Positions 25,525 through 43,100 of a DNA stretch of 46,635 bases are shown piece after piece. The notes beneath the pieces are model-generated. The model was given only the letters and a program-made list of their open reading frames with translations. It was not told the origin of the DNA and did not search any database. The position numbers and the translations under genes are program-made. The stretch spans positions 1 through 46,635 of the forward strand of contig JAADIH010000239.1 in NCBI GenBank assembly GCA_013151435.1, read 5' to 3'. This DNA comes from Alphaproteobacteria bacterium. GTDB taxonomy: Bacteria; Pseudomonadota; Alphaproteobacteria; Caulobacterales; Parvularculaceae. Position 1 is the first letter of the stretch. Every line of letters begins with the position of its first letter.

Positions 25525-28500
25525 CTATGCATCATTTAGGCGATGCAACAGCTCGATAAGTTTCGGATCAGTATCCATTCCGAATTCAGGATCTTTGAGT
25601 TTTCTTACAATCTCAGCAGCTCCATAAGGCCAGCGCGCGGCGTCTTCAGGAAGAATAGCAAACAACAAGTCGAGCGTGCTTTTCGGATGTGTCCTGACAT
25701 TGGCGCCTTCTTTATCTCGAATGGAGGGCAGATACAGGTGTTCGTTTTCAACTCCCTCTACCAATTCGGCCACCAGTTTTGCGATCTCGGGAAATAGCCG
25801 CTTTTGCGAAAATGCCAAGTCACATAACCTTGCCGATACGCGAGGCGTGCGTGCCTTTTTCTGTTTGGGCCAAACATCGGTTAAAAACTCCACAATTTTT
25901 TCGGGCCAGTTGGTATCTTGATCCGAACTCCAGCGCTCCAATTGCCAGAGGATATGATTTCTAAATTCTTCGGTGGAGTTTAGCAAAACAGCCCTAAATT
26001 CCTCGTTGGAAATAAATGTAGTGGATTGACTATCTCCTTTTGATCGCCAGCCGGACAACAGCAAACCCGAAAGTATCTCTCCATGGCGGCGATTTAAAGG
26101 AGATTCGCGACGGGCCATTTGGAGAAGCATGGGCTTTAAACGATCATATAGCGCTGCTTGTGGAATTTGCGCGCCCCAGAAGAAACCTGACCAAATCGCG
26201 CCTTTGTCGAACTCGCTTGCAGAAGCATTTTCAAGTACGGAAATAAGATGAGATTCGGCAAACTCAGGGTCAATGTAGAAAAACCAATTTAGGTTGAAGG
26301 CAAAAATCGTCAGTGCATATTGCCGGGAGAATTCAGGCAACGATATCAGCTCTTTCACACGATCAAGCCACGCATTCGGAAATATTTGCCTTTTGTTTAA
26401 TCCTTTCTTTTTGTCATCGGTCATGTGCAGCTGTGTCAAATAACCCGCAGGCGAATTGATCGCTTCAGATGCCCAATCGGGGTCTTTATTGCCGCGAATA
26501 ACCGAGGAAGTTTCTTCCATATTCAAATTTTGAATTGCGTTCACAAGTATGGTCCATATTTTTTCAAAATGGGACTTGTGATGATCCCGCAAATATGGGC
26601 CAGCGCTTTGGAACCATTGCGCCAACGAGTGAAGAATAGCGGGGATGTTTCCTTCGTCGATTTCAGAAATACGCGCGGCCAGAAGTAAATTTATCCGTGG
26701 CGATTCTGCTGTGACCTTTTTTGAATGCAAGAATTGCCTCCAATAACGAGCCGAAAATTCAGCATCACACGGAACCGCCAATAAAGCGCGTAAAGCCCGG
26801 ACAGGTCGCTCCTCGCATAGTCCCGCAAATGGGTTCTGTTCTATGAAAGTTGCAACGCGACGAGATTGTAACTTAGAAGCTTGAGTGACGATCTCCGATA
26901 TCGGTGTCTTCGCCAGCTCAGACCAATCCGTATTAGTTTTCACCGAACCGGAGCGCCCATCTGTACTTTCTGCGGCGCTCTCGGCATATTCCTCCAACCA
27001 GTCGGGGGCCTTTTCTCTTAGAGGCTCTATTGTTTCTTCAAAATTGAATGAGAATTCACAACCTTGGTTATGGAGCCAATACAGCACGTTTAGACGCAAA
27101 TGGGCTGATGAAATTTTGTGTTCCTCGATTGGTTGATTTTTGTAGCGTTTTGGCCCCAACAATATACGTTTTTCAATTTTCTTTCTGTCATTGAGCGGAA
27201 TAACGTTCCACCGACGCGCTAATGTGAGCAATAAATCTCTTTGGCCTTTGTAATCCCAAAAAGACTTGCGATCCACACCAAGTAATTCAGCCGCGTAGGT
27301 GGTTCCGCTTGCCAGTTCTGGCATCCCTGCAGCCCAAAACCTAAGTCGGGCAAAAACTACATCCCCGCTTCGCCAACGTTTGTATTCATTGGCTGCTTTA
27401 GCTGCATCGAGTTGGACCAAGCGCCGGAAAAGGCTCGTGAAATAAATAACGTAGCCAGACAGCTTATAATGGCGGTGAAACTGCTCATTGTCGTCACCCT
27501 CAACAGGTTCATCCGGCTCAATTGCGCAAACATCAACCCAACCCGATAAATCCTTCTCAAGGTCTATTGCTTTTTCGACATTAGGTCTGAAAACCTCGAT
27601 TACTGCCGCAAGATGAGTGTCAGGTATTTGAACGGTCTTGAATGCGTCAGGGTATTCAACCGAAACAGAAATCAAGTCTCGAAGACGCACACCTTTCTTT
27701 GTGGACGGTGGAAGTGGGCCTCGGTAGAGCGGTTTGCTTTCAAGGCTTGGGGCCGCAATTTTTGCGAATTGTCGAATCGTCGATCCGTTCCAACCTAATT
27801 TATCAACATCCGATTTAAAATCGTATTGCTCCAAGCGATCTATCGATCCCGTGTCGGCAACCTCGAAGACAAGCCGCCAACCTTCACGTACAGCTCTAGG
27901 AATAGGTTTTTTTGGATTTCTGCCACGAGTGTGGCGATTGACCCTATCCCGAACATCTGGATGCAGCGATCCTTGACTGGCAGCCCACCACACAGATGCG
28001 GGTTGGTCTGCAACTTCGACGATCCACTCGCCAATTGCGGCCATTCGTTTGGGTAATCTTGGCACTCGTTTTGACCAGTGCCCGACCAATCCCGAAATTT
28101 GGTCATCAGATAGTTCGGCGCGGTCGATATCTGACGATGCAAATGCGGACCATGCATCTGGTGGAATCTTTTTGGCTGAGAATTCATCATTGCGGCCAAT
28201 GGGCGGGGGGTCATCGTCCAGAGAATACAGATCATATGGATCAACAACCGGACCATCGCTGTACATGCCGTTTTGTGATGCCGGATCGGAGAAACGTATT
28301 GATCTGTCGAATACGCAAAGCCATGTTGCGGGCAACGGGGGATTGGCATTTCGAAAAGATTTGGCACCCGATTCAGATGATACGATATGTGCGACCATAC
28401 CTCTTTCATGTGGTGCCAATTTTTCAGGGCCTCGCCGCGCTTTTCGAAATACGGTTTCTCGCCATGCCAGAGGGGCATCGCTTCGCGCAGACCATTCACG

Positions 28501-29358
28501 AAGCGAGTTCCAAAGGAGCTTATGTTTATCCCGAGGATCATAAGTTATGGTGCGAACACCTTTTTCGTCCCACCTTGCGATTGCTTCATCGTCTTCCCCA
28601 GCCTGAAATGCATAAATATCGCCAAGCGTTCCTCTCGACTGCATCAATCCTTCAAGTAAATACCGAATAGGGGGATCGTCTGCTGAGTAACCAACAAATA
28701 CGGCGGTAAAGCGTTGTAAAATATCTTGAACGAAGCTTCTTGCCCAACCTTGGGCCAAATACGCATCCCCGAATTCAGCGCTTGAGAGCACAAACCCGTC
28801 TTGGTCTGGCGCACTCGAGTCTGTGTTCACTCTACCATGGAGGTGGACGATGCCCCAGTTATGGGAGTCGAAATTTACATGTGGCAAATTTGACCGCGTA
28901 CAGGAATTTAGAACGGGATCAGCCTGCTCAAACAATCTGTCGAAGTTGGTCGTTACTAGTCGAGTATGACCAGTTTTTTGTTTGGCGAGTCCAAGTAGAA
29001 TCTCATGTGCTATCGTGTTCGGTTTTTTGTCTTTTGGCTTCAATATCCTGGCTACGGACTCATGTATAAGTTTTTGGTCAAAGCTTCTAGCTAGTAAGGA
29101 AAAGATTCGATCTGCTGCAAGCAACCCACTTACATTGGCATCCTCTTCCAGACGCTTCGCAGCTTCGTACACTCGCACAGCTTCACTATCGGGAGCTGCG
29201 CCCAAATCGGTAAGCACTTGTTCGGCAAGGCCATCGAAATTCGGTAATCCGGTATATGCCATAGACACGCCGGAGCCACAGAAAAAAACTACCCTGCCTT
29301 CATCTTGGGCAGTTAGTAATTCATTCGGAAATACGGGGCCATCTTCAATAAAACGCAT
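25525..29358 (-). CDS. large SIR2-domain protein, probable NAD-depleting anti-phage defence effector
   Basis: A 1277-residue protein. The N-terminal about 300 residues are a SIR2-type NAD-binding domain: VVFFCGSGVS (residues 24-32, the GAGxS-like site), VTTNFDRLF (Asn138, Asp140), VHLHGRV (catalytic-type His174) and FVGYSADDPPIRYLLEG. The remaining about 970 residues are mostly helical with Trp/Arg-rich segments and may form a sensor or scaffold; this build (N-terminal SIR2 plus a very long helical C-terminus) resembles DSR-type and SIR2-DUF4020-type proteins. Characterised relatives destroy NAD when a phage is detected and so abort infection. The function here is inferred from this architecture and the mobile-element context. 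It is a single gene with no obvious partner, convergent with 24460-25230. Confidence 0.82.
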   Translation of the reverse strand: MRFIEDGPVFPNELLTAQDEGRVVFFCGSGVSMAYTGLPNFDGLAEQVLTDLGAAPDSEAVRVYEAAKRLEEDANVSGLLAADRIFSLLARSFDQKLIHESVARILKPKDKKPNTIAHEILLGLAKQKTGHTRLVTTNFDRLFEQADPVLNSCTRSNLPHVNFDSHNWGIVHLHGRVNTDSSAPDQDGFVLSSAEFGDAYLAQGWARSFVQDILQRFTAVFVGYSADDPPIRYLLEGLMQSRGTLGDIYAFQAGEDDEAIARWDEKGVRTITYDPRDKHKLLWNSLREWSARSDAPLAWRETVFRKARRGPEKLAPHERGMVAHIVSSESGAKSFRNANPPLPATWLCVFDRSIRFSDPASQNGMYSDGPVVDPYDLYSLDDDPPPIGRNDEFSAKKIPPDAWSAFASSDIDRAELSDDQISGLVGHWSKRVPRLPKRMAAIGEWIVEVADQPASVWWAASQGSLHPDVRDRVNRHTRGRNPKKPIPRAVREGWRLVFEVADTGSIDRLEQYDFKSDVDKLGWNGSTIRQFAKIAAPSLESKPLYRGPLPPSTKKGVRLRDLISVSVEYPDAFKTVQIPDTHLAAVIEVFRPNVEKAIDLEKDLSGWVDVCAIEPDEPVEGDDNEQFHRHYKLSGYVIYFTSLFRRLVQLDAAKAANEYKRWRSGDVVFARLRFWAAGMPELASGTTYAAELLGVDRKSFWDYKGQRDLLLTLARRWNVIPLNDRKKIEKRILLGPKRYKNQPIEEHKISSAHLRLNVLYWLHNQGCEFSFNFEETIEPLREKAPDWLEEYAESAAESTDGRSGSVKTNTDWSELAKTPISEIVTQASKLQSRRVATFIEQNPFAGLCEERPVRALRALLAVPCDAEFSARYWRQFLHSKKVTAESPRINLLLAARISEIDEGNIPAILHSLAQWFQSAGPYLRDHHKSHFEKIWTILVNAIQNLNMEETSSVIRGNKDPDWASEAINSPAGYLTQLHMTDDKKKGLNKRQIFPNAWLDRVKELISLPEFSRQYALTIFAFNLNWFFYIDPEFAESHLISVLENASASEFDKGAIWSGFFWGAQIPQAALYDRLKPMLLQMARRESPLNRRHGEILSGLLLSGWRSKGDSQSTTFISNEEFRAVLLNSTEEFRNHILWQLERWSSDQDTNWPEKIVEFLTDVWPKQKKARTPRVSARLCDLAFSQKRLFPEIAKLVAELVEGVENEHLYLPSIRDKEGANVRTHPKSTLDLLFAILPEDAARWPYGAAEIVRKLKDPEFGMDTDPKLIELLHRLNDA

Positions 29359-29828: not shown

Positions 29829-30290
29829 TTAACTTAGGATGCGCTCCGACCTGGCAGCTGCAATTTCGTCGCGCCTGTTAATCTCCTGGGCGATGCTGGC
29901 GCCAGTTGATGCGAAACCTGATATCAGTGCGAACGGTGCTGCGCGTCGCTTTGATGCCGCCCTGGTTTTGATATCCGTCTCGCGGAATTTCGACGACAGA
30001 ACCTCAGCGTTTTCGTTTGTTTGTGAGTTCCTGCGGTTCACGCGACGAATGTTCACTCCGCCCGGAGAGTCCAGCGACAGGCCGCGACCCACACGAATGG
30101 TATCGATTGTCGCCAACGCTTGATTAAGCTGGTCTCTGCGGACGACAGAAATTTGCTTCCCACGCAGTTTTTCACCGCGCGCCTGAAATTCCAGAGACTT
30201 CGCCTCAGATTTCAATGCTGCGCGTTGGCCGAAACTGCTGGCAAGGCTGGCTCCGGCTGATATGCCCGTGAAAATAGCACTAGCTGCCAT
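29829..30290 (-). CDS. phage internal-virion (gp14-like) protein
   Basis: A 153-residue protein resembling small internal or ejection proteins of podoviruses: a Gly/Ala/Ser-rich hydrophobic N-terminus (SAIFTGISAGASLASSFGQR), a long charged helix (KSEAKSLEFQARGEKLRGKQ), then GRGLSLDSPGGVNIRRVNRR and a second hydrophobic Gly/Ala segment (ALISGFASTGASIAQEI). The start at 30290 is set by GGAGG six bases upstream; the ATG at 30302 lacks such a site. It is encoded next to the TerS-like gene on the same strand. An isolated gp14-like gene without tail or nozzle genes means this module is partial. Confidence 0.6.
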   Translation of the reverse strand: MAASAIFTGISAGASLASSFGQRAALKSEAKSLEFQARGEKLRGKQISVVRRDQLNQALATIDTIRVGRGLSLDSPGGVNIRRVNRRNSQTNENAEVLSSKFRETDIKTRAASKRRAAPFALISGFASTGASIAQEINRRDEIAAARSERILS

Positions 30291-30327
30291 GGTTGCCTCC
30301 ATTCAAACAATTGTTGCGCTCACAAAT

Positions 30328-30798
30328 TCACTTAGTCAGGTCAAGAATAATACGCGTCGATGCATCGCGTAATTCTCGCTCAGCGAAATCATCCGCCATC
30401 ATTGATTCAACAAACTTTTGCATTTGGCTGTAGGGGAACTTCCAGTCTTTACTTTGAAGAGCCGTTCGCGCCTGGCGTTGCCAATATGCTCTTGCCAGAT
30501 CGTTTGCTCTGGAGGCGGCGCCAGCAAAACGGTCATGTTCTCGGCGCCACACAATCCACTGCTCACCTGATATACCTAGCTCCGCGCGCAGCTCTGCATT
30601 CGCGAGCCCAACTTTCGCCAATGCCAGGAGTCGTTCTGGCAAGTCATTCGTGTACTCCGCTAGGGGTTCCGGCATGCGATCTAGTATGTCTTCCGGGCTG
30701 ACACGGGCCACGATGCGATCCAATGCGTCGATGCGCTTATTCAGCGCTGAGTTCTCTTCGCGCAGCTTATCCACTTCACTTTTTGCTTTTCCAGACAT
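30328..30798 (-). CDS. phage terminase small subunit-like / HTH protein
   Basis: A 156-residue protein with an N-terminal coiled coil (VDKLREENSALNKRIDALDR) and a central part, GLANAELRAELGISGEQWIV, followed by ASRANDLARAYWQRQARTAL. This resembles the helix-turn-helix plus helix of small terminase subunits that recognise phage DNA. The start at 30798 has GGAG seven bases upstream. The frame is open further up to 31152, where an ATG overlaps the rep stop as ATGA, but the extension looks non-coding. Gap 30799-31148 otherwise shows only a 15-bp palindrome. The assignment as TerS is by pattern and is not certain. Confidence 0.5.
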   Translation of the reverse strand: MSGKAKSEVDKLREENSALNKRIDALDRIVARVSPEDILDRMPEPLAEYTNDLPERLLALAKVGLANAELRAELGISGEQWIVWRREHDRFAGAASRANDLARAYWQRQARTALQSKDWKFPYSQMQKFVESMMADDFAERELRDASTRIILDLTK

Positions 30799-31032
30799 TT
30801 TTATTCTCCAAAAAAATTTAAATTTCGAGGGCAATAGGTATACGGTATGCGCCGTCGCCGCGTTTTTGTCCCCGGGGGGTCTGTTTTTACGATCCACTGA
30901 AAACGCGCTGAGAAAACACTCACGCTCTTTGCTCGCGGACGTAATCAACCACTGCGGTAGCTCTATGATTGCGCGGCGTCTGTGTGATGACGTTGAAGCG
31001 GCATTCTTATTGACGTTGGGATGATTGATCTT

Positions 31033-31047
31033 CTGATTGTCAATCAG
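31033..31047. promoter_or_regulatory. 15-bp palindrome upstream of TerS-like gene
   Basis: CTGATTG-T-CAATCAG is a perfect 7-bp inverted repeat with a single-base centre in the 350-bp gap between the rep gene end and the TerS-like start. It could be an operator for a repressor or activator of the late-type genes. No other signal supports this. Confidence 0.3.
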
Positions 31048-31148
31048 GTGGTCCGCAATCGTGCTTTTAGTTTTCGTGGCGACTATGCAACATGTCGCGC
31101 GCGCGATAGGGCAGCTACTCGGCAGGAGGATATCTATTTCACCGTAGA

Positions 31149-31997
31149 TCATGCGACTGAGTCCTGCGTGAACTCTCTGTCAAGTTCGATGTCGCCTAAA
31201 ATTCTTTCAATCTGAGAATTGAGTTGGGGGCTCCAATTGACATCCGGCCTATCATAAGCATCCGATTGCAGCCGTGTTAGAATGAGTTGCGCATCGTGAG
31301 AGGAAATCTCATTGGTATTCCACTTACGATCTATCTCACAGATGAGTGATTGGAAGTCTCTGTTTTCTGGGTATGAGAGAATCGCTTCTGGATCTTCTTG
31401 TAGGATAGTCAGAACGCTAGATAACCATTGCGGCTTATCGATTGAAGGACAGTTCCCCAAATGGCTTTGCAAAGCCACCACATTGTTAGATGTGGCAGTT
31501 TCACTGAATCTATTATTCGTTTCACGGGATATATTCTCCGTTTCACGGAATATATTAGGGACGATTTCCTCAACTGAATCATTGTCTTGGCATTTCTCGA
31601 TGCAATCTATCTCAGGCTTGATTGATTGCAGGCGTGCAGTCTTTTTCTTTTGAGATGCTACTCTCATAGCTTGCGCATCCGCGTCGTTATAGATGACGCG
31701 GTGAATACGTTTGCGCCTGTCTTTTGGGTCTTCTTCTTGAATTACATATCCAAGTTTGATCAGACGCCTGATGCTCCTCCACACAGTGGATGGATCACAA
31801 TTCGCGCACTCGGCTAGGCGATCAGTACCAGCATAGCAGCCACGCTCATTATCTCCGAACCGATCATGGGCAGCGATAATCATCAATAGACGAAAGTCCG
31901 TGGGCGCCAATTGTGTGTCCCTCGCTGCGCGAGTGGGGACGGGTGCAAAGCGTTCTTTGCGTCGTTGTCCTGGAGAAGTGCGATTATTCACATTCAC
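31149..31997 (-). CDS. winged-helix replication-type protein of element 1
   Basis: A 282-residue protein with an N-terminal winged helix-turn-helix of the phage/plasmid replication type: LAPTDFRLLMIIAAHDRFGD, CYAGTDRLAECANCDPSTVW, RSIRRLIKLGYVIQEED. This DnaD/RepA-like N-terminus is followed by a low-complexity polar linker and a C-terminal helical part. The linker is encoded by three 21-bp direct repeats (31498-31560), read as FRETENI-SRETNNR-FSETATS. That recalls lambda O, where the origin iterons lie inside the initiator gene. The start overlaps the preceding Cys-rich gene by 14 bases with GGGGGG ahead of it. It is probably the element's replication initiator. Confidence 0.65.
   Translation of the reverse strand: MNVNNRTSPGQRRKERFAPVPTRAARDTQLAPTDFRLLMIIAAHDRFGDNERGCYAGTDRLAECANCDPSTVWRSIRRLIKLGYVIQEEDPKDRRKRIHRVIYNDADAQAMRVASQKKKTARLQSIKPEIDCIEKCQDNDSVEEIVPNIFRETENISRETNNRFSETATSNNVVALQSHLGNCPSIDKPQWLSSVLTILQEDPEAILSYPENRDFQSLICEIDRKWNTNEISSHDAQLILTRLQSDAYDRPDVNWSPQLNSQIERILGDIELDREFTQDSVA
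31498..31560. repeat. three 21-bp tandem direct repeats inside rep (candidate origin iterons), element 1
   Basis: Units start at 31498, 31519 and 31540, all beginning GTTTCAC and continuing GGGATATATT or close variants. The period is exactly 21 bp, two helical turns, as in iterons. They are AT-rich. A degenerate fourth unit may follow (TCCTCAACTGAATCATTG). Confidence 0.7.
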
Positions 31998-32271
31998 CCC
32001 CCGAAGCCTTCGGGCTTAGATTTTTCAGGGCGGAAAGTACCTGCTTTTCCGACCTCGCAGCTCTGGATGGATTTTTTCCGAATCTGTAACGAAAGAGTTC
32101 GCAATCAACGGAAACACATTCCGCAACGTCTTTGGGCGAACCGCCCATGCATGCGATACACTTTTGGCGAATTGCTCTTAAAGGCGTTGGCTTGAATACG
32201 TGTCTACTCGCGGGTGGTTTGGGGGATTTCTCGACGGTTGACGATTCAGCCGTATTCGGAGTATCAAACAT
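31984..32271 (-). CDS. small cysteine-rich phage-type protein
   Basis: A 95-residue protein with the pattern RQKCIACMGGSPKDVAEC...VDCELFRYRFGKNP. It resembles a small prophage protein type found next to replication genes, in which four cysteines (CxxC...C...C) bind a metal and end in a C-L-x-YRxGxNP box. The role is unknown; nucleic-acid binding is plausible. GAGG lies 11 bases upstream of the ATG. Its 3' end overlaps the rep start, so the two are coupled. Confidence 0.65.
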   Translation of the reverse strand: MFDTPNTAESSTVEKSPKPPASRHVFKPTPLRAIRQKCIACMGGSPKDVAECVSVDCELFRYRFGKNPSRAARSEKQVLSALKNLSPKASGGECE

Positions 32272-32329
32272 TTTCTATAGCCTCATATCTCTCCTGGCTT
32301 GCCGCCGCAAAAGAGATTGTTGGATTTAG

Positions 32330-32361
32330 CCCCGAACTGCTGTGCGGTTCGGGGTTTTTTT
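32330..32361 (+). terminator. intrinsic terminator (plus strand)
   Basis: CCCCGAAC - 9-nt loop - GTTCGGGG followed by TTTTTTT (32355-32361): a strong classic Rho-independent terminator. It is oriented for plus-strand transcripts, although no plus-strand gene is recognised upstream within element 1 after 25.2 kb. It may end an unseen antisense RNA or protect the xis-like gene from read-through. Confidence 0.75.
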
Positions 32362-32367
32362 ATTGGT

Positions 32368-32583
32368 TCATGCAGCTTGCTGTGAAGTTGAAGTCATCAC
32401 ACGTTCGGCTATGAAGTGATCGAGGTCTTCTGGCCTGTATCGTACTGACCGACCGATCTTCACGTACGGTGGTGAATTCAACCCAGTAACACGGGCTTTA
32501 TTTATCGCGCTCTCGGACCAACCAAGGCGACGTGCCGCCTGTGCAGTCGTTAAGAGGGCTTTCTGATCAACGATGTCTTGCAC
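32368..32583 (-). CDS. AlpA/excisionase-type helix-turn-helix protein
   Basis: A 71-residue MerR-like winged helix of the excisionase/AlpA group: LLTTAQAARRLGWSESAINK, then PPYVKIGRSVRYRPEDLDHF. The K/R-IGRSVRYRxxDLxxF ending is diagnostic of the Xis/HTH_17 family. The GTG start is fixed by GGAGG seven bases upstream. In satellites, AlpA-type proteins switch on excision and replication. Here it lies between the rep operon and the integrase gene, which fits that role. Confidence 0.8.
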   Translation of the reverse strand: MQDIVDQKALLTTAQAARRLGWSESAINKARVTGLNSPPYVKIGRSVRYRPEDLDHFIAERVMTSTSQQAA

Positions 32584-32693
32584 TTAATTTCCTCCATGTT
32601 TATCGACGTGTTCTCGATTGCATGGAGAAAATAGTGTTTCCTGCCTATCCCCTAAGGCGCAGTAATCATCCGTTTCTTGACCCTATTGTGCGC

Positions 32694-33431
32694 CTAATTG
32701 CGAATTCGATACCTTCTTTGGAGAGTACGCTCAATAACCGTTAATGCGGCTTGGAGAGATTGTCGGCCAGCGTGCTCTTCGCCCAAGATTCGTGAAGCAA
32801 TAGCGATCACGAGTTCCCAAAAATTGCTTCTGCGTGTGTTTATAGACCCGCGAGCGTCTTCAACTGGCTGTTCAGTTTTCGAAAGCCTCGGCACATAAAT
32901 ATCTTCGGACTCAAGAGTATTTATACATTGAAGGATCAATGAGTGAAATATTGAGTTATCTTTGCGCCCTCTGCCGGTTTGAATTGCAAGCGCAGCATCG
33001 ATCGAGCGTGAATATCGCTCGAGGTAGTCCAGTATGACCCAAAGCTCTGGCACAGTTGTTTTTATAGGTCGCCCCGCGCCCGGACGTTCAAGTGTAATCC
33101 GTGATAGTAAGTATCTACTACCATGAGTTTTAATCATATTTAGCGCTGCGCGCTCAGCGGTACCTGATACGGCTTCCGTGTATCGATTAGCGTCGTCAGT
33201 GAACTTCGCTATCGTAGAGTGAAGTTTTTTTAATGCTTTTTTTGTTTCGCTTTTTGTTGCGGCTAGCTCAAAAGACGGTGCCCATAGTAATGTGTCGAAA
33301 ATCTCCTGAAAGCGTTCAGCAACATGGGAGGACGGTGAAACCATTAATGCTGTGCAGAGCTGTTCTATCTCAGTATCTAGAAGGACTGTATCCGGTACAT
33401 CATCAACATTTTCCATATCAACGTGCATCAT
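32694..33431 (-). CDS. hypothetical protein of element 1
   Basis: A 245-residue soluble, mostly helical protein with no recognised family. It begins with an acidic stretch (DVPDTVLLDTEIEQL), has a central Arg-rich part (SRYLLSRITLERPGAGRPIK) and a basic C-terminus (ERTLQRRYRIRN). The start at 33431 is set by GGAGG six bases before the ATG; the in-frame ATG at 33446 has no such site. It lies upstream of the AlpA-like gene on the same strand. The gap 33432-33634 contains only part of dispersed repeat copy C. Confidence 0.55.
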   Translation of the reverse strand: MMHVDMENVDDVPDTVLLDTEIEQLCTALMVSPSSHVAERFQEIFDTLLWAPSFELAATKSETKKALKKLHSTIAKFTDDANRYTEAVSGTAERAALNMIKTHGSRYLLSRITLERPGAGRPIKTTVPELWVILDYLERYSRSIDAALAIQTGRGRKDNSIFHSLILQCINTLESEDIYVPRLSKTEQPVEDARGSINTRRSNFWELVIAIASRILGEEHAGRQSLQAALTVIERTLQRRYRIRN

Positions 33432-33619
33432 GTGTTGCCTCCGCATGAAAGTTCAGCGCGGCGACTCCGTTGCGGTACAGAGTTTTCGGCGGCTAAACCT
33501 AGTCGCGCTTCTTCTTAAGGTAACGGTGATAAAGATAGATTGCATCAGTTTATTGAGACCGGGCCACCTAACTGACTGCTCAGAATAGAATTACCCTCCA
33601 GAAAGCTGGGGACTTAACG

Positions 33620-33635: not shown

Positions 33636-33919
33636 CAGGGTGTCAGGACATAAATGAACCGGGCAACCAAATCGGCAATCCTGAGGGGAAAAGCGCGCCT
33701 TATTGTGCGCTCAACAGCATCTTCTCCTGCATCACGGACCTCGCGCCACTCGGCGACGCGCTGACTAGAGACGCCAATTTCATCAAGAGTTGAGGTGCCC
33801 GGTGCGCGGGCACCCTGTTGTTGAGTTTGAAGATCAAGATGAGGATCAACTTGTATGGCGAAGTAACTCAAGAACGCATTCCAAGTGTTCCTCACCATCA
33901 ACATATCCGCCAAAGACAT
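33635..33919 (-). CDS. hypothetical protein, possibly 3' part of a phage DNA-binding protein
   Basis: A 94-residue frame. The part TSTLDEIGVSSQRVAEWREV resembles the small helical DNA-binding segment seen in ParB-like and methylase-associated phage proteins (LxELGIxxxQxxxW pattern). The N-terminal part overlaps the better supported gene 33846-34253 by 74 bases and is probably not native, so the frame may be a truncated gene whose true start is lost. There is no clear ribosome site. Confidence 0.35.
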   Translation of the reverse strand: MSLADMLMVRNTWNAFLSYFAIQVDPHLDLQTQQQGARAPGTSTLDEIGVSSQRVAEWREVRDAGEDAVERTIRRAFPLRIADLVARFIYVLTP

Positions 33920-34253
33920 TGAATTTGATCAAGGCATCATCATAGTTCTCGGACGGGCGAGATCTCATTTCCGCCTCGATTTCACTAACCCAACGATCAA
34001 TCGCAGTAATGTAACCATCTAAGAAGTTAGCACTCTCACCAATTTGGTGCTTAGGTCGGCACATTTCTGCGCTCATGGCTTTCACGCCTACATGAATCGC
34101 ATCGTAGACCCGCGACAAGTCCTCTAAACTGAGATCAGACAGGGCTACGTTCCTACCTGATATTATCCGATAGCTGGTTGATTGGGGCTGGGGTCCCAAA
34201 TTGGGGCTAGCTTGATTTATTGGCTCTTGTAATTCAACATTTTGGTAGTTCAT
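33846..34253 (-). CDS. hypothetical protein of element 1
   Basis: A 135-residue soluble protein, not recognised. It has a Pro/Gln-rich N-terminus (EPINQASPNLGPQPQSTSY) and a helical remainder (SLEDLSRVYDAIHVGVKAMS, ITAIDRWVSEIEAEMRSRP). The start is well supported by AGGAG eight bases before the ATG. It lies 68 bp from the integrase 3' end on the same strand and is therefore downstream of int. Confidence 0.55.
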   Translation of the reverse strand: MNYQNVELQEPINQASPNLGPQPQSTSYRIISGRNVALSDLSLEDLSRVYDAIHVGVKAMSAEMCRPKHQIGESANFLDGYITAIDRWVSEIEAEMRSRPSENYDDALIKFNVFGGYVDGEEHLECVLELLRHTS

Positions 34254-34321: not shown

Positions 34322-35512
34322 TTATCCGCCTTTCTTTTTCAGTGGAATTACTTCGGCAACATGTCCAGCGAGGCTTGCTGCTATGTTGCCGGCAATCTGG
34401 TCAGCGGCTGCGCGCCTTGGATCATCTGACATGTGCGCATATCGCTGCGTGGTCTGTGGTTGAGAGTGGCCGAGCAATGAGCCGATTAGCGGTAAGCTGT
34501 GACCGCTAGCCGCTGCGACGCTCGCATAACTATGTCGTAGATCGTGCAATCTAACGTCGTTGATCAACGCTGCTTTGCGAATACGCTGCCAAGGTTTTTG
34601 TAAGTTGACTAGACTGGCGCCAATTTTTGCGCCGCATATCACATGAGGATTGCCCTCAATCCGGGGTAGGGAACTGAGAACCTCAATTGCGGGGGCGGAA
34701 AGTGCAATTGTTTTCTTGCCTGTTTTGGAATCTGCAAGGCGTAACAGACCTGCACCCAAATCTACCTCAGTCCATTGTAAATTGAGAATTTCTCTGAGGC
34801 GAGCCCCTGTAAACAGCAGCAATCTTATAGCTGCAATCACATAAGGCCGTTGGCCCGCTTGTTCGACTACGCGCAATACCCGACCGAGGCGTTTTAATTC
34901 TCTTTCGGAGAGGAACCTCTCGCGTGACGTTTCCTTGAACTTTTCAACGTGATTAGACGGGTTTGAGCCATCCGCCCTAACGCCCCACACCTCAGCCATT
35001 TTGAACATATGCTGCATTAAGGACAAACATCGGTTCGCGGCGTAAGGCTTATCCCGCATGCCCAGGTGCAACCTTGTGACGTCAGCGCGGGTGATATCTT
35101 TCACCTTCATATTACCCAGAGTTGGCAATATATGGTTTCTTAGATTACGATGTTCGTCATTCACAGTCTTCGATTTTTTATGTGGTTCCGCATAGTCGGC
35201 CGTATATCTTTCAGCAAAAACCTTGAGAGTGTCTGCTTTCTGATCCGTAGTTCGTTCCGCTGCGGGATCGGCGCCTTCAAGTATCCGGCCAATTAGTTTT
35301 TTTGCTTCCTTGCGGGCGGCATCCGGTGTCCAAGGCGCTCCATGACGCCCAAAGGTTAGCCAGCGCTGAACTCCTGACCGGCGGTATTTAAGAATGTAAC
35401 TTTTAACGCCGCCTTTTGATACGCGCAGACCGAAGCCTGGGATATCGCCGTCCCATATCGTCTGGCCAGGTTTGGCGGCATCAACCCGCCGCTTTGTCAG
35501 TCTTGATCCCAT
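34322..35512 (-). CDS. tyrosine recombinase/integrase of element 1
   Basis: A 396-residue phage-type integrase. The N-terminal arm-binding domain is of the DUF4102 type (LTKRRVDAAKPGQTIWDGDI, GFGLRVSKGGVKSYILKYR), followed by a SAM-like core-binding domain and the catalytic domain. Catalytic residues are visible: Arg in TGARLREIL, Lys in SKTGKK, HxxR in HDLRHSYAS, then LLGHSQPQTTQRYAH with His and the nucleophilic Tyr. The ATG at 35512 has AGGT upstream; a GTG at 35533 would add seven residues. This DUF4102 family commonly targets tRNA or tmRNA genes. It lies 160 bp from the right att, consistent with being the enzyme that inserted element 1 at tRNA-Asn. Confidence 0.92.
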   Translation of the reverse strand: MGSRLTKRRVDAAKPGQTIWDGDIPGFGLRVSKGGVKSYILKYRRSGVQRWLTFGRHGAPWTPDAARKEAKKLIGRILEGADPAAERTTDQKADTLKVFAERYTADYAEPHKKSKTVNDEHRNLRNHILPTLGNMKVKDITRADVTRLHLGMRDKPYAANRCLSLMQHMFKMAEVWGVRADGSNPSNHVEKFKETSRERFLSERELKRLGRVLRVVEQAGQRPYVIAAIRLLLFTGARLREILNLQWTEVDLGAGLLRLADSKTGKKTIALSAPAIEVLSSLPRIEGNPHVICGAKIGASLVNLQKPWQRIRKAALINDVRLHDLRHSYASVAAASGHSLPLIGSLLGHSQPQTTQRYAHMSDDPRRAAADQIAGNIAASLAGHVAEVIPLKKKGG

Positions 35513-35552
35513 GCGACACCTGCTTGGGAGCACAGACAGAAAATCTCTTCAT

Positions 35553-35674: not shown

Positions 35675-35724
35675 CTGACTGTTAATCAGCTTGTCACTGG
35701 TTCGAGTCCAGTCCGGGGAGCCAT
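35675..35724 (+). repeat. middle att site: attR of element 1 and attL of element 2
   Basis: 50 bp identical to 13630-13679 of tRNA-Asn. It cannot be a tRNA itself, as the 5' half is missing. The last 16 bp (CAGTCCGGGGAGCCAT, 35709-35724) recur at 44664-44679. On the minus strand it encodes the last residues of the second integrase (APRTGLEPVTS). Confidence 0.9.
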
Positions 35725-36864
35725 GCTGGTCCATGAACCTTTTCCTTTCAATGACTTAGTGCTGATAAAAGTCCCATCCTTCGCAATGTCGATTTTGGGC
35801 GGGACTATTTCGACCTGTTTTTCGCCTCTTGTCCAGAGGCGCATTGCGTCATCGGCTAACTTTTCGCGATCGCGGGCGCGAATGTACTGCTCAAACACCT
35901 GAATTGAGTCATGGCCGGTGATCGCCGTCGCCTGGGCCGAACTGCACCCGGCTTCAACCAACATCACTGACGCTGCTTTTCTCAAACCATGGCAAGAACA
36001 ATGCGGCAGACCTGCTTCGACGCACCATGCCTTAAATCGACCGCCGAATGATTCACGCGAGCCCCAGGGACGTCCGAACCGTGTGGTCAGAAACGTCAGA
36101 TCACCGATCTTCGCCGCGTTGATACTGACGGCAAGGTATGGATGTATCGGAATCGAAACGCGCGTTCCTTTCGTGTGGGCTGTTTTCTTCGGTGTAAAGC
36201 TCAACCGGCCGGACTTTATGTGCTGGCGCCCCAATTCAAAAGCATCATCACGTCGCACACCCGTGTAGAGCATGAGGTCGAGTGCTAGGCGCTGTTGCGT
36301 ACCAAGCGGAAACATATTTTCAAACTTTTCAATCTCTTCGAGCGTCCAGGTGTGATAGCCCTTGCTGCGGATTTTCAATAGCTTCACGTCGCGCGCGGGA
36401 TTGGTATCCATATAGCCATATTCAACCGCGAAGCTGAAAAGCTGGCGCAGCGCCTTAATAAACCCGTTTGCGCCATGCGGTTTTTCCGCTCGCTTATTAC
36501 GCATCGCACGGATATGCTTTGGCTTTATTTTCCGCACCGGCAATTCAGCGCATTTCTCCCGAATCGGATCAAGCGTCAATCGGCGCCGGTAACGCGTATC
36601 AGGATTAAGCGCCCGATACTCCGGCGATTGATAATACTCAACGCAAAGCCGGTCGAAAGTTCCCGCCGCCGGTAAGCCGCCGCGATATTTCGGTTGCTCG
36701 CGCGGCTTCAGCTTGCCCTGTTTTACGGCCTGATAGTCCGTCCAGAACTCTTCTTCAAAAAGTGGGCCGCGAAGCCTAATCTTTTTCTTGCCCGGCTCGC
36801 GATAATAGATGCGCGCGTTGCCGTGCCTATCATAATCAACGATGATATATTTCGGTTTTTTCAC
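35686..36864 (-). CDS. tyrosine recombinase/integrase of element 2
   Basis: A 392-residue phage-type integrase. It starts KKPKYIIVDYDRHGNARIYY (arm-binding region) and its catalytic domain shows Arg in TGVRRDDAFEL, HGLRKAASVM for HxxR, and GHDSIQVFEQYI with the final Tyr. The tail MAPRTGLEPVTS is encoded by the tRNA-derived att core, a known trait of integrases whose gene abuts the attachment site. The GTG at 36864 overlaps the stop of the AlpA-like gene as GTGA, supporting this start over the TTG at 36882. It is the last gene of the capsid operon in the integrated state. In the circular form its tail would change (see findings). Confidence 0.92.
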   Translation of the reverse strand: MKKPKYIIVDYDRHGNARIYYREPGKKKIRLRGPLFEEEFWTDYQAVKQGKLKPREQPKYRGGLPAAGTFDRLCVEYYQSPEYRALNPDTRYRRRLTLDPIREKCAELPVRKIKPKHIRAMRNKRAEKPHGANGFIKALRQLFSFAVEYGYMDTNPARDVKLLKIRSKGYHTWTLEEIEKFENMFPLGTQQRLALDLMLYTGVRRDDAFELGRQHIKSGRLSFTPKKTAHTKGTRVSIPIHPYLAVSINAAKIGDLTFLTTRFGRPWGSRESFGGRFKAWCVEAGLPHCSCHGLRKAASVMLVEAGCSSAQATAITGHDSIQVFEQYIRARDREKLADDAMRLWTRGEKQVEIVPPKIDIAKDGTFISTKSLKGKGSWTSMAPRTGLEPVTS

Positions 36865-37106
36865 GCGGCTATTTTGTCCCAAGGGTTTTCGCCTTCGTCA
36901 TCTTCCCCGTCATGTGGCAACGCGTCGAAGGCGTCGTCAAGTTCTCTGCAGTCCCAAACCTTGCGACAATCAATCCGCCGTGCTCTTGGCATGCGGCCAT
37001 CCTTGACCATTTCATCAAATTTAGTGACGCCGACGCCAATATATTTCGCCGCCAGCGACCGGCTCATGCCGCGCGGCCACAAACCAGCTGGAACATGTTT
37101 TATCAT
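36861..37106 (-). CDS. AlpA/excisionase-like helix-turn-helix protein of element 2
   Basis: An 81-residue MerR/Xis-type DNA-binding protein: GMSRSLAAKYIGVGVTKFDE for the helix-turn-helix, then MVKDGRMPRARRIDCRKVWD, matching the wing and the xRxDxRxVWDxxxLD ending often seen in phage HTH proteins, and an acidic tail. Its ATG overlaps the portal stop as ATGA and its own stop overlaps the integrase start as GTGA, so it is translationally tied to both. It could act as excisionase or transcriptional activator for element 2. Confidence 0.75.
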   Translation of the reverse strand: MIKHVPAGLWPRGMSRSLAAKYIGVGVTKFDEMVKDGRMPRARRIDCRKVWDCRELDDAFDALPHDGEDDEGENPWDKIAA

Positions 37107-38350
37107 GTCATACCCTCCGCCAGCTCGCCTGGCGGTGTTCCGTCCATCTCCGGTCGGGAATTCCAGCCCTCAACTTCGCGGACCTCGTTGGCCGTTAGAA
37201 TGTTGTTTTTCACGGCTATTTCATGGGCTTGCCAACGCGCCTCTGGGTCGCTGCGCAAGAGCGATGTCATGTCGAATTCGATTTCGTGCGTCGCGCGCTC
37301 CGATTCGGAAAACAATGAACGCCGGATCGTTTCTTCCAGCTTGCGCACCCAGGGCATGAGCGTGAACTGTCCGAACCAGCGGCCGGCGCTTTGGCTGTTG
37401 GTGAATGTGTTATGCGTGTAGTCCCCGATGATCGGCGGCGGCACTTGGAAGATGCGCGCGATTTCCTCGACCGTGAACCGGCGCGCGGAGATCATTTCGA
37501 GATTTTCCGGCGTGATATTCAACGGCGTAAAGACCGCACTACCGGTGACCAGCGCCACTTCGCCAGCGTTCCGCACACCCTGCCACACTTCCTTCAGATT
37601 CGTGAGCAAACGGGTTACCTCTTCTTCCGTCACCTCATCCTTGATCGATAAAATCCCGCCTGGCGCCGCCTGATTTTCGTAAATATGAGCGCCATAGGAT
37701 TCTTGAGCAATCCCGGCGCGAACAGGCGACGCGCAGCGCGACAGGCGCGATCGACCAATTAATCCGTCATCAGAGCGATCCCGAAGATGCAGAACGTCGC
37801 TGTCAAGAAGCCGCCGCATTTTTCCCGTTCCGCCATAGATCGAATTGATGTCGCTGACGTCATACACGAGGCGCCCGGATTTCAGCAGAACCGGGGTCAC
37901 ATTGCGCCAGGGAATGATGATTAGCGCCTTGATGCGGCCAGACCGGTCGCTTACGATTTCGACGAGGCCATTTCCATGAGCGAGGGTTTCAGAGACGAGC
38001 ATTTCCAAAAAATCAGGGAACGCCTGATGCGCATTCGGCCCTTCACGAATCAACCGCGCGACCGGATGATCATTGTCGATTTCACGGCCATCGCCGCCCC
38101 TTTTATAGATATAGACCGGGAAGCTCGCCAACGCGCCGGCGATTGCCGCGATGCAAGCGCTATAGGCTGCGAGGTTTTCTGCAATACGCGGCGTCATCAT
38201 TGCGCGGCCGTCGATTACCGCGTCAAAGCCGCCATGGGTGCCGGCCAGCGCCTGCCATGACAGATCGGCGCCGCGCGTCTCAACCGGCGGTTCGGCTTTT
38301 GCGGGCGGCGCCGGGTCGATGCGCTCGGCAATGCGCCGGATCAATCCCAT
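37103..38350 (-). CDS. HK97-family phage portal protein
   Basis: A 415-residue portal, the dodecameric ring at the capsid vertex through which DNA passes. Recognisable parts are RMLRRL-like starts (here MGLIRRIAERI), DNDHPVARLIREGPN, LAHGNGLVEIVSDRSGRIKA, RRFTVEEIARIFQVPPPIIG and the NTFTNSQ clip region. This is the normal size for the family. The start at 38350 is chosen because it overlaps the protease stop as TAATG and has GGAG eight bases upstream; the longer frame to 38482 runs antisense-like through the protease. The order of transcription is capsid, protease, portal, the reverse of the usual portal, protease, capsid. Confidence 0.92.
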   Translation of the reverse strand: MGLIRRIAERIDPAPPAKAEPPVETRGADLSWQALAGTHGGFDAVIDGRAMMTPRIAENLAAYSACIAAIAGALASFPVYIYKRGGDGREIDNDHPVARLIREGPNAHQAFPDFLEMLVSETLAHGNGLVEIVSDRSGRIKALIIIPWRNVTPVLLKSGRLVYDVSDINSIYGGTGKMRRLLDSDVLHLRDRSDDGLIGRSRLSRCASPVRAGIAQESYGAHIYENQAAPGGILSIKDEVTEEEVTRLLTNLKEVWQGVRNAGEVALVTGSAVFTPLNITPENLEMISARRFTVEEIARIFQVPPPIIGDYTHNTFTNSQSAGRWFGQFTLMPWVRKLEETIRRSLFSESERATHEIEFDMTSLLRSDPEARWQAHEIAVKNNILTANEVREVEGWNSRPEMDGTPPGELAEGMT

Positions 38351-38919
38351 TAGAGCGTCTCCAGATAGCGGCGAAGGGCGTCGAGGCGCGGCGTCGGGCA
38401 GGAACGACTGGAGACAAGCTGCCCTGCGGCCGGACGCGGCCATTGCCGCGCCTCGACTGAGGTTTCCGCATAGGCCGGCCATGCAGAAACAACACTGATT
38501 TCGAGGAGCTTGGCGCGTTCAATCACGCGTATTTCCCCGTCTTTTGATTCCTGTTCGACGATGAAGCCGATTGAGGCGCCGCCGAGATCGCCGCGCATGG
38601 CGAGCGCCAGGGCGTCACGCCCGGCGCCGGTGTTGGGCACGGCAATATCGAAAGCGAGGCCTTGAGGCTCATCACTGAGCTGCAGAGTCTTTGAGCGTGT
38701 GCGGCCAAGCACGCGGGTCGGATCGTGATCGAGGAGGGCGAGAATGTCCGCGCCGTCGCCAATCGATTCCGCGAACGCATCTGGGGCGATGCGTTCGCGA
38801 AACGGACCGATATCGGCGACGACGCCATAGCGCGCAGCGAAGCCGATAAGCCGTCTGGCGCTGGCGCGGGTGTCGGTGAGGATTTCCGCCGAGAAACGCT
38901 GTTCGATTTTGCCGGTCAT
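38350..38919 (-). CDS. HK97-family prohead protease (S78)
   Basis: A 189-residue capsid-maturation protease. It shows the family start-like RFSAEILTDTRASARRLIGF, then PFRERIAPDAFAES, the catalytic histidine in LALLDHDPTRVLGR, and the serine in GDLGGASIGFIVE. This protease cleaves the delta domain from the capsid protein during prohead maturation. The ATG at 38919 follows GGCGGAGATC. The gene begins 14 bp after the capsid stop and overlaps the portal start by one base of its TAA stop, so the three genes are translated as a set. Confidence 0.9.
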   Translation of the reverse strand: MTGKIEQRFSAEILTDTRASARRLIGFAARYGVVADIGPFRERIAPDAFAESIGDGADILALLDHDPTRVLGRTRSKTLQLSDEPQGLAFDIAVPNTGAGRDALALAMRGDLGGASIGFIVEQESKDGEIRVIERAKLLEISVVSAWPAYAETSVEARQWPRPAAGQLVSSRSCPTPRLDALRRYLETL

Positions 38920-38932
38920 GATCTCCGCCCCC

Positions 38933-40207
38933 CTATGCGGCCGGGAAGTCGGTCGCGGCGGCGAAGGATTCGATGTGGCGCACCGCAATATCGGCGGTGA
39001 GCATGCCGCGGACGCTGACATTGCCTTTTGAATAGGCGGTCGATTCGTATGGGTTCACGAGCAAATCAAAGGCCGAAAAGTAGCCGATGAAAAGATCAGA
39101 CCACTGACCGAATATGATTGATGTTTCATCCGGCGTCGGTACGGTATCGATCGGCACCAGCGTCGAACGCGAGACCGGATAACCCGCCAGGCTGTCTGGC
39201 GCCTCCATCACCATCACCGAATCGGTGGAGGCGACTTTCGGCGTCTCACGCAATTTCTTGGCGACCAGCGGGCGCATGACAAAGCCGTTGCCCTGGGCGT
39301 CGGCTTCCTCGACGATGTTGATCAGATCGAGAATGTTGGACCAACTCGGTGTCGCCATTGAGACGCTAGTGTCGATCCCGGCGGCGATCAAACCCGTTGG
39401 CTCATTCGTCCCGCCGCCGACCAGCGCCGCCGCATCGAGGGCGCGCGCCAGAACCGCGGCAAAGTCGCTGCGAATCAACTGTTCGATATCCGGAGTCGAT
39501 TGCATCAGCATATTACGAGAAAATTCCGTCAGTGCACCGACATGTTTCGGAGCCAAGGAAATTTTATCGAAGGCCTGGTCCGAGGCGGTGAGGGCGGTGT
39601 TCTCGGCCACCCAACCTGAAACGGCGCTGGTTTTGAGGAGCGGAATATCCACATTCCCGACAAGCCCAGAGAGCACCGTCGCGCCGCGCTGTTGCGTCAC
39701 CAGTTGGCTGCGCAAAATATCGATGAAGTGCTCGCCGAGAAAATCGGTGGCGATGATATTGGTGCCCGGTCCGCCCGCCGGGGCGGTTGTGGTAACGACG
39801 CGTTTTTCAAAAACCTGCATCGGCACGGCGAGGCCCTGGAAAGCGCCGCCGGCATTGCGGCGCTTGATCTCGCCCGAGGCTTCACGCTCGAAGGCGTCAT
39901 CCACATCGAGACCGGCGGCGCCGGCCATCGCGCGCACCAGGGAATATCGAGTGCGGATTTCACGGTCGAAATTGTGATCCTTGTCGCCGGCGATGACCTC
40001 GCCGCCAGCGCGGCGGTCGGCTTCATCGATCAGCTTTTGCCGGTCCTCCTGCTTTTCGACAAGCTCAAGTTCGCCTTTCAGGATGTCAAATTTTTTCGAC
40101 TGTGTTTCGGAAAGATCGCCGCCCTTGTCGCTTTCCGGCGCATCATTTATGGCGCGCATTTGGGCAACAAGGGCGGCTCTCTTTTCCCTAAGCTCTCTGA
40201 GCTTCAT
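38933..40207 (-). CDS. HK97-family phage major capsid protein
   Basis: A 424-residue capsid precursor. The N-terminal about 110 residues are a charged coiled-coil delta domain (KLRELREKRAALVAQMRAIN...), removed by the protease in the family. The HK97 fold body follows, with PTDFLGEHFIDILR-like E-loop region (here IIATDFLGEHFIDILRSQLV), ENTALTASDQAFDKISLAPK, VGGGTNEPTGLI and a C-terminal GYFSAFDLLVNPYESTAY. The start has GGAG eight bases upstream. It is the first gene of the capsid, protease, portal, alpA, int chain. Capsid size cannot be deduced, but a 9-kb genome would need a small shell or several copies packaged. Confidence 0.93.
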   Translation of the reverse strand: MKLRELREKRAALVAQMRAINDAPESDKGGDLSETQSKKFDILKGELELVEKQEDRQKLIDEADRRAGGEVIAGDKDHNFDREIRTRYSLVRAMAGAAGLDVDDAFEREASGEIKRRNAGGAFQGLAVPMQVFEKRVVTTTAPAGGPGTNIIATDFLGEHFIDILRSQLVTQQRGATVLSGLVGNVDIPLLKTSAVSGWVAENTALTASDQAFDKISLAPKHVGALTEFSRNMLMQSTPDIEQLIRSDFAAVLARALDAAALVGGGTNEPTGLIAAGIDTSVSMATPSWSNILDLINIVEEADAQGNGFVMRPLVAKKLRETPKVASTDSVMVMEAPDSLAGYPVSRSTLVPIDTVPTPDETSIIFGQWSDLFIGYFSAFDLLVNPYESTAYSKGNVSVRGMLTADIAVRHIESFAAATDFPAA

Positions 40208-40316
40208 GGGGCATTCTCCATCTAAGGGGGACGGCCGGCATCATCGCGACGCTGGTAAAACCGTCAGGCTACTGCGCAATTTCCTCTATCAGAGGCGGAC
40301 CCGCAGCGATCCGATT

Positions 40317-40583
40317 CTAGTTAATCCGCCTCCTTACCTGTGGCATGGCGAAAAGCTTTGGCGAATAGTGTAAAAGTAAGTAACCCATTACGGGCCATGG
40401 CAGGCCGACCATTTCCGCAGCGTCTTCGAGCGTGAAAAACTCTCCGATTTCTATCCGGTCAAATAACTCACTGCAGCGTTGCTCAAATCCCGGTGTAGAT
40501 ATGCGATCAAGAAAATTGTGGCTCGAAAAATACGCGCAAATAACTTCGATATCGGGAATTTTGTCACTTACTGGGGCTTTCAT
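40317..40583 (-). CDS. hypothetical small protein, possible DNA-binding
   Basis: An 88-residue protein. The stretch EIGEFFTLEDAAEMVGLPWP resembles a short helix-turn-helix (LEDAAEMVGL). The rest is aromatic-rich. It has an excellent ribosome site (GAGGAG five bases before ATG), and its start overlaps the stop of the upstream MerR-like gene as ATGA. It lies 110 bp before the capsid gene, a place where a regulator or a scaffold-type cofactor of the capsid operon could sit. The family is unknown. Confidence 0.5.
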   Translation of the reverse strand: MKAPVSDKIPDIEVICAYFSSHNFLDRISTPGFEQRCSELFDRIEIGEFFTLEDAAEMVGLPWPVMGYLLLHYSPKLFAMPQVRRRIN

Positions 40584-41059: not shown

Positions 41060-41147
41060 GTGAGTATCACATACGCATACGCTGCGCAAGAGAGTCTTTT
41101 CAAGGCAGCGATGATTTCCGAATCATCCACAAATGCCATGATCAGAC

Positions 41148-41378
41148 ATGCCGGCGAGAATTGATGTGAAATCGAAAGAAGAACTAGAAAAGGAATGGTG
41201 GGATGCCTGGTGGGAGGCCGACTATTCTTGGGAGGGTTTGAAAGAGAAAGTTGTCGTCGGGGGAAAGTACGAATCGCAATGGCTCCGAATCGCTCGTAAC
41301 TTTCACAAATGTCAAACCTTCAACATGTTCCTGGCTTTTGCTCAAATTGCGGCCTGTTCCCGTCGACCTTTAAACTAG
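41148..41378 (+). CDS. hypothetical small Trp-rich protein
   Basis: A 76-residue frame with an unusual tryptophan cluster (EKEWWDAWWEADYSWEGL), then KEKVVVGGKYESQWLRIARN. No family is recognised. Its last 70 bases overlap the next ORF in another frame, and the final 25 or so residues look unlike the rest, so the two ORFs might once have been one gene split by a frameshift. There is no clear ribosome site. Confidence 0.4.
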   Translation: MPARIDVKSKEELEKEWWDAWWEADYSWEGLKEKVVVGGKYESQWLRIARNFHKCQTFNMFLAFAQIAACSRRPLN

Positions 41379-41863: not shown

Positions 41864-41931
41864 CGAGCTTGGTCACTGCCCGGAATGACGCACACGCCTT
41901 CACTGTACGAACACCTAATAGGAACTGACCG

Positions 41932-42831: not shown

Positions 42832-42840
42832 GCTCTATCT

Positions 42841-43098: not shown

Positions 43099-43100
43099 CA

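Follow-up and report, generated by a model that had tools for sequence, protein, structure and literature searches.

In phage lambda, four iterons and a 39-bp AT-rich stretch lie within the initiator gene O, and two of the iterons together with the AT-rich stretch suffice for unwinding (PMC6022878, PMC7466680). The iterons are described there as inverted repeats (PMC6022878), for which possible hairpins are discussed (PMC7466680). In PICI replicons, the origin is described as following directly on the 3′ end of the initiator gene and as having an AT-rich region between two sets of iterons (PMC6092414). Here, we analyzed a 46,635-nucleotide stretch of DNA (the window) in which an array of 21-bp repeats (31498–31560) lies inside the coding sequence of a putative initiator (31149–31997).

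Two tandem elements at a tRNA-Asn gene

The array belongs to the first (element 1) of two neighboring elements, whose relevant features are listed below.

13630–13678, plus strand: 3′ part of tRNA-Asn (intact tRNA at 13603–13678), att-like copy 1
31149–31997, minus strand: rep of element 1, 282 aa, GTG start, with a predicted winged-helix N-domain, disordered linker and helical C-domain
31422–31667, minus strand: linker of the element-1 Rep, residues 111–192, pLDDT <50, containing all three repeats
31743–31913, minus strand: winged helix of the element-1 Rep, residues 29–85 (HTH_36, E = 2.1e-10)
32368–32583, minus strand: small DNA-binding protein of element 1, HTH_17-like (2.2e-7) and excisionase-like (PHROG excisionase, 7.3e-7), which we take to be AlpA-like
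34322–35533, minus strand: tyrosine integrase of element 1 (Phage_integrase, 2.6e-18)
35675–35723, plus strand: 49-bp identical copy of the tRNA-Asn 3′ end, between both elements
43101–44312, minus strand: rep of element 2 (HTH_36), used as a comparison gene
43581–43720, minus strand: in-gene boxes of element 2, CCCCCGAC five times forward and GTCGGGG three times reverse
44664–44679, plus strand: third copy of the tRNA-Asn end, 16 bp (CAGTCCGGGGAGCCAT), on the far side of element 2

The 49-bp tRNA-Asn repeat and its 16-bp third copy are consistent with two elements in tandem, an arrangement already recognized in a first-pass annotation of this DNA. Element 2 (35686–44312) comprises an integrase, a portal, a capsid and an HTH_36 Rep whose gene carries forward and reverse CCCCCGAC boxes, and by its gene content appears to be a capsid-bearing small element or a degraded prophage. 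The term satellite, which the annotation had applied to both elements, is not supported here: element 2 has portal and capsid genes, and element 1 has only weak phage-structural matches, namely to an 'internal virion protein' PHROG (29829–30302, 7.2e-6) and a terminase PHROG (30328–30798, 0.029). A 1277-aa SIR2-domain protein (25525–29358, minus strand) matches PADLOC Dsr1 models (8e-90) and is likely anti-phage defense cargo of element 1. In a sibling element on contig C186 of the same genome (L019, 5772–8040), a Septu-like PtuA/PtuB defense pair adjoins the rep gene, designated L002 below.

The window Rep matched thirteen replication-related PHROGs with partial coverage (9.4e-8 to 0.026), the best being 'replication initiation' families (9.4e-8). 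An AlphaFold2 model built from two sequences (mean pLDDT 54, low confidence) predicts a winged helix and a helical end, with residues 111–192 between them as a disordered linker. Searches against Pfam and PHROGs found no helicase-loader family of the P or DnaC type among nine element-1 proteins around rep, and a host helicase loader could serve the element instead.

The 21-bp array in the rep gene of element 1

The array and the structures next to it are as follows, with the units numbered in coding order.

31462–31477, no strand: perfect 16-bp palindrome TGGCTTTGCAAAGCCA, adjoining the inverted repeat at 31478–31495
31478–31495, minus strand: inverted repeat CCACAT-CTAACA-ATGTGG, directly adjoining hairpin 3
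31498–31518, minus strand: repeat unit 3 (NRFSETA), with hairpin 3, CAGT-GAA-ACTG, at 31496–31506
31519–31539, minus strand: repeat unit 2 (NISRETN), with a weaker hairpin, CGT-GAA-ACG, at 31518–31526
31540–31560, minus strand: repeat unit 1 (NIFRETE), with hairpin TCCGT-GAA-ACGGA at 31537–31549

We recovered the three units where the first-pass annotation had placed them, with an exact period of 21 bp and starts at 31498, 31519 and 31540, each beginning with GTTTCAC and having an AT-rich second half; the HTH_36 match and the predicted disordered linker likewise agree with its placement of the array in the linker of a winged-helix Rep. On the coding strand the units are of the AATATATTCCGTGAAAC type and encode NIFRETE, NISRETN and NRFSETA; GTGAAAC is common to all three, and the stem letters differ between units 1 and 3 although pairing is kept. 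Tandem Repeats Finder reported 31498–31557 (period 21, 2.9 copies, 82% matches, zero indels) and no second tandem array in this rep gene. The best 42-base stretch of lag-21 self-match scored 32 in the window, against a maximum of 27 in 100 first-order Markov simulations of the window.

Direct near-identical 10-mer pairs numbered 39 in the window rep. The 300 synonymous-codon shuffles averaged 14.7 such pairs and gave 32 at most, so that none of these protein-preserving sequences reached the observed count and the DNA is more repetitive than the peptide demands. Inverted near-identical pairs were not in excess (11; 133 of the 300 shuffles were equally high). For the rep of element 2, no shuffle among 300 was as high in direct repeats, nor in direct and inverted repeats combined. 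Both tandem elements have an HTH_36 Rep with repeats in the linker DNA, and the repeats of the two are unrelated in sequence, as the annotation had stated.

A 17-mer of the array recurs with one mismatch in L002, which is the sole place outside the array with zero or one mismatch in that 3.07-Mb, 88% complete genome. Seventeen places were listed for this 17-mer, and those examined were the array, L002, and contigs C219 (2 mismatches) and C85 (3 mismatches), where the matches fall in unrelated genes and were discarded. We found no clear separate box array in the window rep. The 9-mer TGAGATAGA, which occurs three times in 30300–33500, was weighed as a separate box and dropped as too thinly supported.

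A rare Rep family

Single-sequence searches with the window Rep found no relative in the phages, plasmids, genome_contigs or viral_contigs collections. Whole-genome searches yielded relatives in 6 of 60 relatives, 7 of 62 genomes of the family, 7 of 398 of the order, 2 of 385 of the class (3 of 385 when searched by profile), 1 of 4 around G374 and 1 of 398 in the phylum (the window's own genome only); these tallies include that genome where it was listed, except for the G374 set of four. Members of the family are rare, and of the ten genomes with a match six are from the host genus. With family profiles or proteins as queries, only L033 was matched among the viral contigs, some of these searches giving no match there, and two already known loci among genome_contigs; there was no match among plasmids. 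L033 is an IMG/VR contig with frames that we presume to be terminase-like, portal-like and protease-like.

The comparison covered ten rep genes, those of the window (W), L002, L003, L004, L005, L006, L008, L030, L033 and L059. L006, which is cut by a contig end, was counted, and the fragment L007 was not. Two weak profile hits read by eye, L034 and L036, were excluded from all counts; both have repeats in or just after the gene. In L036 (G320), the weakly related Rep frame ends just before tandem repeats of about 45 bp that are open in another frame, which may place these repeats at the 3′ end of that gene. The N-domain is conserved in the first eight relatives (37–48% identity to the window Rep), and the C-domains differ among family members, as judged by eye.

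Boxes and repeat excess in related rep genes

Boxes resembling TCGGTAACC occur in L003, L004, L005 and L033, at three to seven places per gene. The TCGGTAAC boxes stand in two codon phases in all four genes that have them, the TCGGTAACC-like boxes occur in both orientations in three of the four, and the encoded peptides differ (SVT, IGN), from which we conclude that DNA rather than peptide is conserved. Other boxes are ATCGG[TA]ATC/GATACCGA in L030, GTTCCCC in L008 and AGGTAACAA in L059, and seven of the nine relatives carry boxes unlike the window unit. By eye, K-[ST]-x-A-R is common to the likely recognition helices of the four TCGGTAACC-box Reps, and W, L002, L030 and L008 differ at this place; going by these sequences, box and recognition helix may co-vary.

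Direct and inverted near-repeats, counted together, were reached by at most 5 of 300 synonymous shuffles in seven of the ten family reps (W 1, L004 0, L005 1, L033 0, L030 0, L008 1, L059 5). No excess was seen in L002 (278/300), L003 (86/300) or L006 (143/300); L003 has three imperfect boxes. Among seven control genes of the window, the capsid gene also passed (3/300) and the ORF at 33846–34253 came near (11/300), with the rest at 27 or more. In all ten family reps the lowest-GC 50-bp window lies at nucleotides 435–622, 3′ of the boxes where boxes were mapped.

As in lambda gene O, repeats inside the initiator gene are also found in the element-2 rep and in most relatives. A homologue with an intact linker and no DNA repeats, which the annotation had named as contrary evidence, is approached by L002, with one copy and no array.

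A GAA-loop hairpin in the AT-rich stretch

In most relatives, the AT-rich stretch after the boxes contains a small hairpin, ATATTC-NNNT-GAA-ANNN, in which the stem is preceded by ATATT[CA], and the window repeats are three copies of this family hairpin. A GAA-loop hairpin with a stem of at least 3 stands directly after ATATT in seven of the ten genes. The stems are CCCT-GAA-AGGG in L008, TACT-GAA-AGTA in both L004 and L033, and TGT-GAA-ACA, as a single copy, in L002. L030 has CTCT-GAA-AGAG followed 21 nt on by GCGC-GAA-GCGC (538/559), and L059 has CAGT-GAA-ACTG followed 21 nt on by CCGT-AGAA-ACGG (487/508), whose loop is AGAA; the second hairpin of L008 lies 24 nt on, not 21, and has the loop AAA. 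At this site L006 has TCCC-TAA-GGGA and L005 a longer, different inverted repeat, neither with a GAA loop, and L003 has no hairpin there. DNA hairpins closed by a GAA loop are known for unusual stability. Short hairpins of very high stability, as a general class, are described in PMC10527192.

Covariation was assessed on eight rows (the three window units, L002, L030, L008, L004 and L033), cut by hand around TGAAA, as MAFFT on longer stretches introduced a gap; L003, L005 and L006 were left out for want of a GAA loop at the site, and L059 was found later. In the side-by-side rows, which are not independent (three rows share a gene, and L004 is close to L033), 22 of 24 cells were paired, 11 cells were changed on both sides and the covariation score was 1.07, each reached by 0 of 500 shuffles. 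Two-sided changes occurred at all three stem positions, and slid structures paired in 17–29% of cells. Two of the five measures were unexceptional, namely pairs with a two-sided change (273/500) and further pair types (382/500). Conditioned on the peptide, pairing gave a Fisher p of 3.6e-4 with one site per lineage and 5.7e-6 for all eight; singly, L002 (0.25) and L008 (0.12) showed no significant pairing beyond the peptide. The hairpin sites had been noticed before testing, so that the side-by-side and peptide-conditioned tests are partly post hoc.

Across the ten genes there were nine GAA-loop hairpins with a stem of at least 4, against 0.95 expected and a maximum of 4 in 500 synonymous-shuffle rounds; eight stand at the AT-rich site and the ninth elsewhere in L003. 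The template strand had 2 (0.66 expected), and triloop hairpins with any loop were not in excess (51, against 41 expected and a maximum of 58). At other GAA codons of nine genes, a stem of at least 3 was present in 1 of 83. By this comparison the hairpin is kept as a shape rather than a fixed sequence, with compensatory change in the stem.

Scans with the DNA motif alone bear on the same point. A AATATATTCNGTGAAACNG scan of the viral contigs gave eight hits, one of which, L059 (IMGVR_UViG_2889914905_000001), was identified from its reading frame as a new family rep, with AGGTAACAA boxes upstream and the hairpin in the linker; the other seven, which comprise two sets of three related contigs plus a single one, are not reps. 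The AATATATTCNCTGAAAGNG scan of the same contigs gave four hits, none in a rep, and the AATATATTCTACTGAAAGTA scan none. A pattern search of 100 relatives returned two places, the known L002 and one in G018 opposite a frame that is presumably OmpA/Pal-like. Since such a motif should very rarely fall in a rep linker by chance, we count L059 as a successful prediction, though a single one: a DNA motif, with no use of protein similarity, recovered a new member of the family.

Local layout and predicted folding of the array

In the window rep, the palindrome (31462–31477), the inverted repeat (31478–31495) and hairpin 3 (31496–31506) follow one another without gaps, and the hairpins at 31518–31526 and 31537–31549 come next, making five small hairpins within 88 bases. 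A perfect palindrome with arms of at least 8 arose in 13 of 500 synonymous shuffles of this gene. Its lowest-GC 50-bp window (32%, nucleotides 441–490) is the array itself.

As single-stranded DNA, 31455–31565 was predicted to fold more stably than its shuffles (z −3.2 for one strand, −3.9 for the other). The minimum-energy fold of this 111-base stretch under DNA parameters has all three GAA hairpins, and the centroid lacks the second. As RNA, the same stretch gave z −2.56. The DNA fold of L059 had z −2.6, and those of L033 (z −1.7) and L030 (−0.4 on the coding strand, −1.2 on the other) were unremarkable; the slices folded for L004 and L008 missed their hairpins, and those folds do not bear on the hairpin.

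A possible in-gene replication origin

With modest confidence, we lean toward a lambda-type origin inside the initiator gene, in which an AT-rich hairpin module for melting or priming would have been triplicated in the window. The order from boxes to AT-rich stretch in the family is that of lambda gene O, and the array probably helps to open the element's own replication start site. The winged helix of Rep would bind boxes in the element DNA, the AT-rich linker stretch would melt, and the hairpin would then appear on the coding strand; most likely, the hairpins would aid duplex opening and offer a structured single strand on which a helicase could be loaded or priming could begin. That the stem arms vary while pairing is kept argues for reading by shape, and the likeness of the L008 C-domain to phage replication or primosomal proteins suggests that the step to follow would be helicase loading or priming. 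One copy would be enough for a homologue to persist, to judge from L002, if its origin works at all. If the hairpin is a loading site, the part of the origin that chooses the initiator would be separate from the part that recruits the machinery, which would explain how neighboring elements in one tRNA gene can be distinct replicons. Tentatively, and as a conjecture that we would not press, two codes could be at work: variable boxes for initiator specificity, and phased GAA mini-hairpins, recognized by their shape once the DNA has melted into single strands, as a conserved docking or priming site for the replication machinery, with hairpin copy number (1–3) tuning initiation.

The first-pass annotation had read the repeats as in-gene iterons of satellite replicons, which our results support in part: in-gene repeats are a feature of these reps, and it is doubtful that these particular units are iterons, as they match the hairpin downstream of the relatives' boxes. 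Were they true iterons, each 21-bp unit would be bound by the window Rep and the likeness to the hairpin would be secondary, the module having been co-opted as a box array. The exact 21-bp phasing on one helix face, the GTGAAAC shared by all units and the absence of another tandem array in the gene would suit this, as would L002, with its one-mismatch 17-mer and no excess of another box; lambda iterons, moreover, are themselves inverted repeats with possible hairpins under discussion (PMC7466680). In relatives with clear boxes, however, these precede the hairpin and have other sequences, and stem letters vary between units 1 and 3 and among relatives with pairing kept, which fits shape better than sequence. 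We thus consider this reading a serious one that is nevertheless rather unlikely; the family's iteron is probably something other than this unit, and in the window Rep gene the units may be both boxes and hairpins.

A tandem duplication at the coding level, or a neutral one, with no origin role would suit the predicted disordered linker, the in-frame peptide repeat and a unit length of 21 bp that preserves the frame, but it is improbable given that direct repeats exceed synonymous shuffles, the 21-nt spacing returns in L030 and L059, hairpin pairing covaries in relatives, and one DNA box is used there in two frames. Even less probable is an action of the hairpins in the rep mRNA (translation, stability or autoregulation): the coding strand is the mRNA strand and the RNA fold is better than average, yet the RNA minimum-energy fold lacks the first two GAA hairpins where the DNA-parameter fold has all three, and the stretch is the lowest-GC part of the gene. 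A partition site can hardly be credited. GTTTCACG, present in two of the three units, is half of TGTTTCACGTGAAACA, which we take to be the ParB site, and the array might in principle recruit host ParB; exact chromosomal-type copies of the full 16-bp site occur at two places in the host genome (G000:C183:606–621 and G000:C240:5329–5344). The window holds half-sites only, with the full TGTTTCACGTGAAACA palindrome absent, and the relatives keep the stem shape mostly without GTTTCAC.

Comparison with known systems

The lambda-type reading can be set against several described systems. Lambda gene O and its Stx-phage variants with six iterons resemble the window rep in having mid-gene repeats and an AT-rich stretch, iterons first, and in an N-terminal DNA-binding domain. 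They differ in that what repeats in the window is the AT-rich hairpin unit, that the window Rep shows only weak similarity to O-like families (phrog_678, 1.8e-6), and that no P-like loader was found among the nine element-1 proteins scanned. PICI replicons (SaPI, EcCI) are alike as small integrated elements with integrase, DNA-binding regulator, rep and repeats; a PICI-type origin was rejected here because the array lies inside rep and Tandem Repeats Finder reports no tandem array in 30800–31150. Within the family, L059 is like the window in its Rep and in having boxes followed by the ATATATTCAGTGAAACTG hairpin and, 21 nt further along, by another hairpin, and unlike it in having a separate AGGTAACAA box set and two hairpins instead of three.

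Burkholderia phage Bcep176 gp11 ('primosomal protein') is an HTH_36 protein whose gene has four AACAGTCCC copies at exact 22-bp spacing, adjoining its lowest-GC stretch, and its C-domain resembles that of L008 (48% identity over 29% of the query); its box is unrelated, and it has no TGAAA hairpin with a stem of at least 3. The L008 C-domain also matches proteins of F10, Pkon1, phiAX1 and Bartholomew, of which only F10 has a notable repeated in-gene 9-mer (CTGATTCTC, three times) and none a TGAAA hairpin. A distant Rep from a Bradyrhizobium prophage (33% identity to L059) has, by eye, GGGTGCCC-type in-gene repeats and no GAA hairpin with a stem of at least 3. In-gene repeats reach beyond this Rep family, to Bcep176 gp11 and the Bradyrhizobium prophage Rep, where the hairpin was not seen. 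We know of no precedent for a hairpin that is separate from the boxes and kept by compensatory change in the AT-rich portion of an origin that also codes for protein, and the titles and abstract openings consulted gave no report of a conserved hairpin inside an in-gene origin. In-gene origins are already known from lambda; a conserved hairpin module that stands apart from the boxes is what this locus and its relatives would add.
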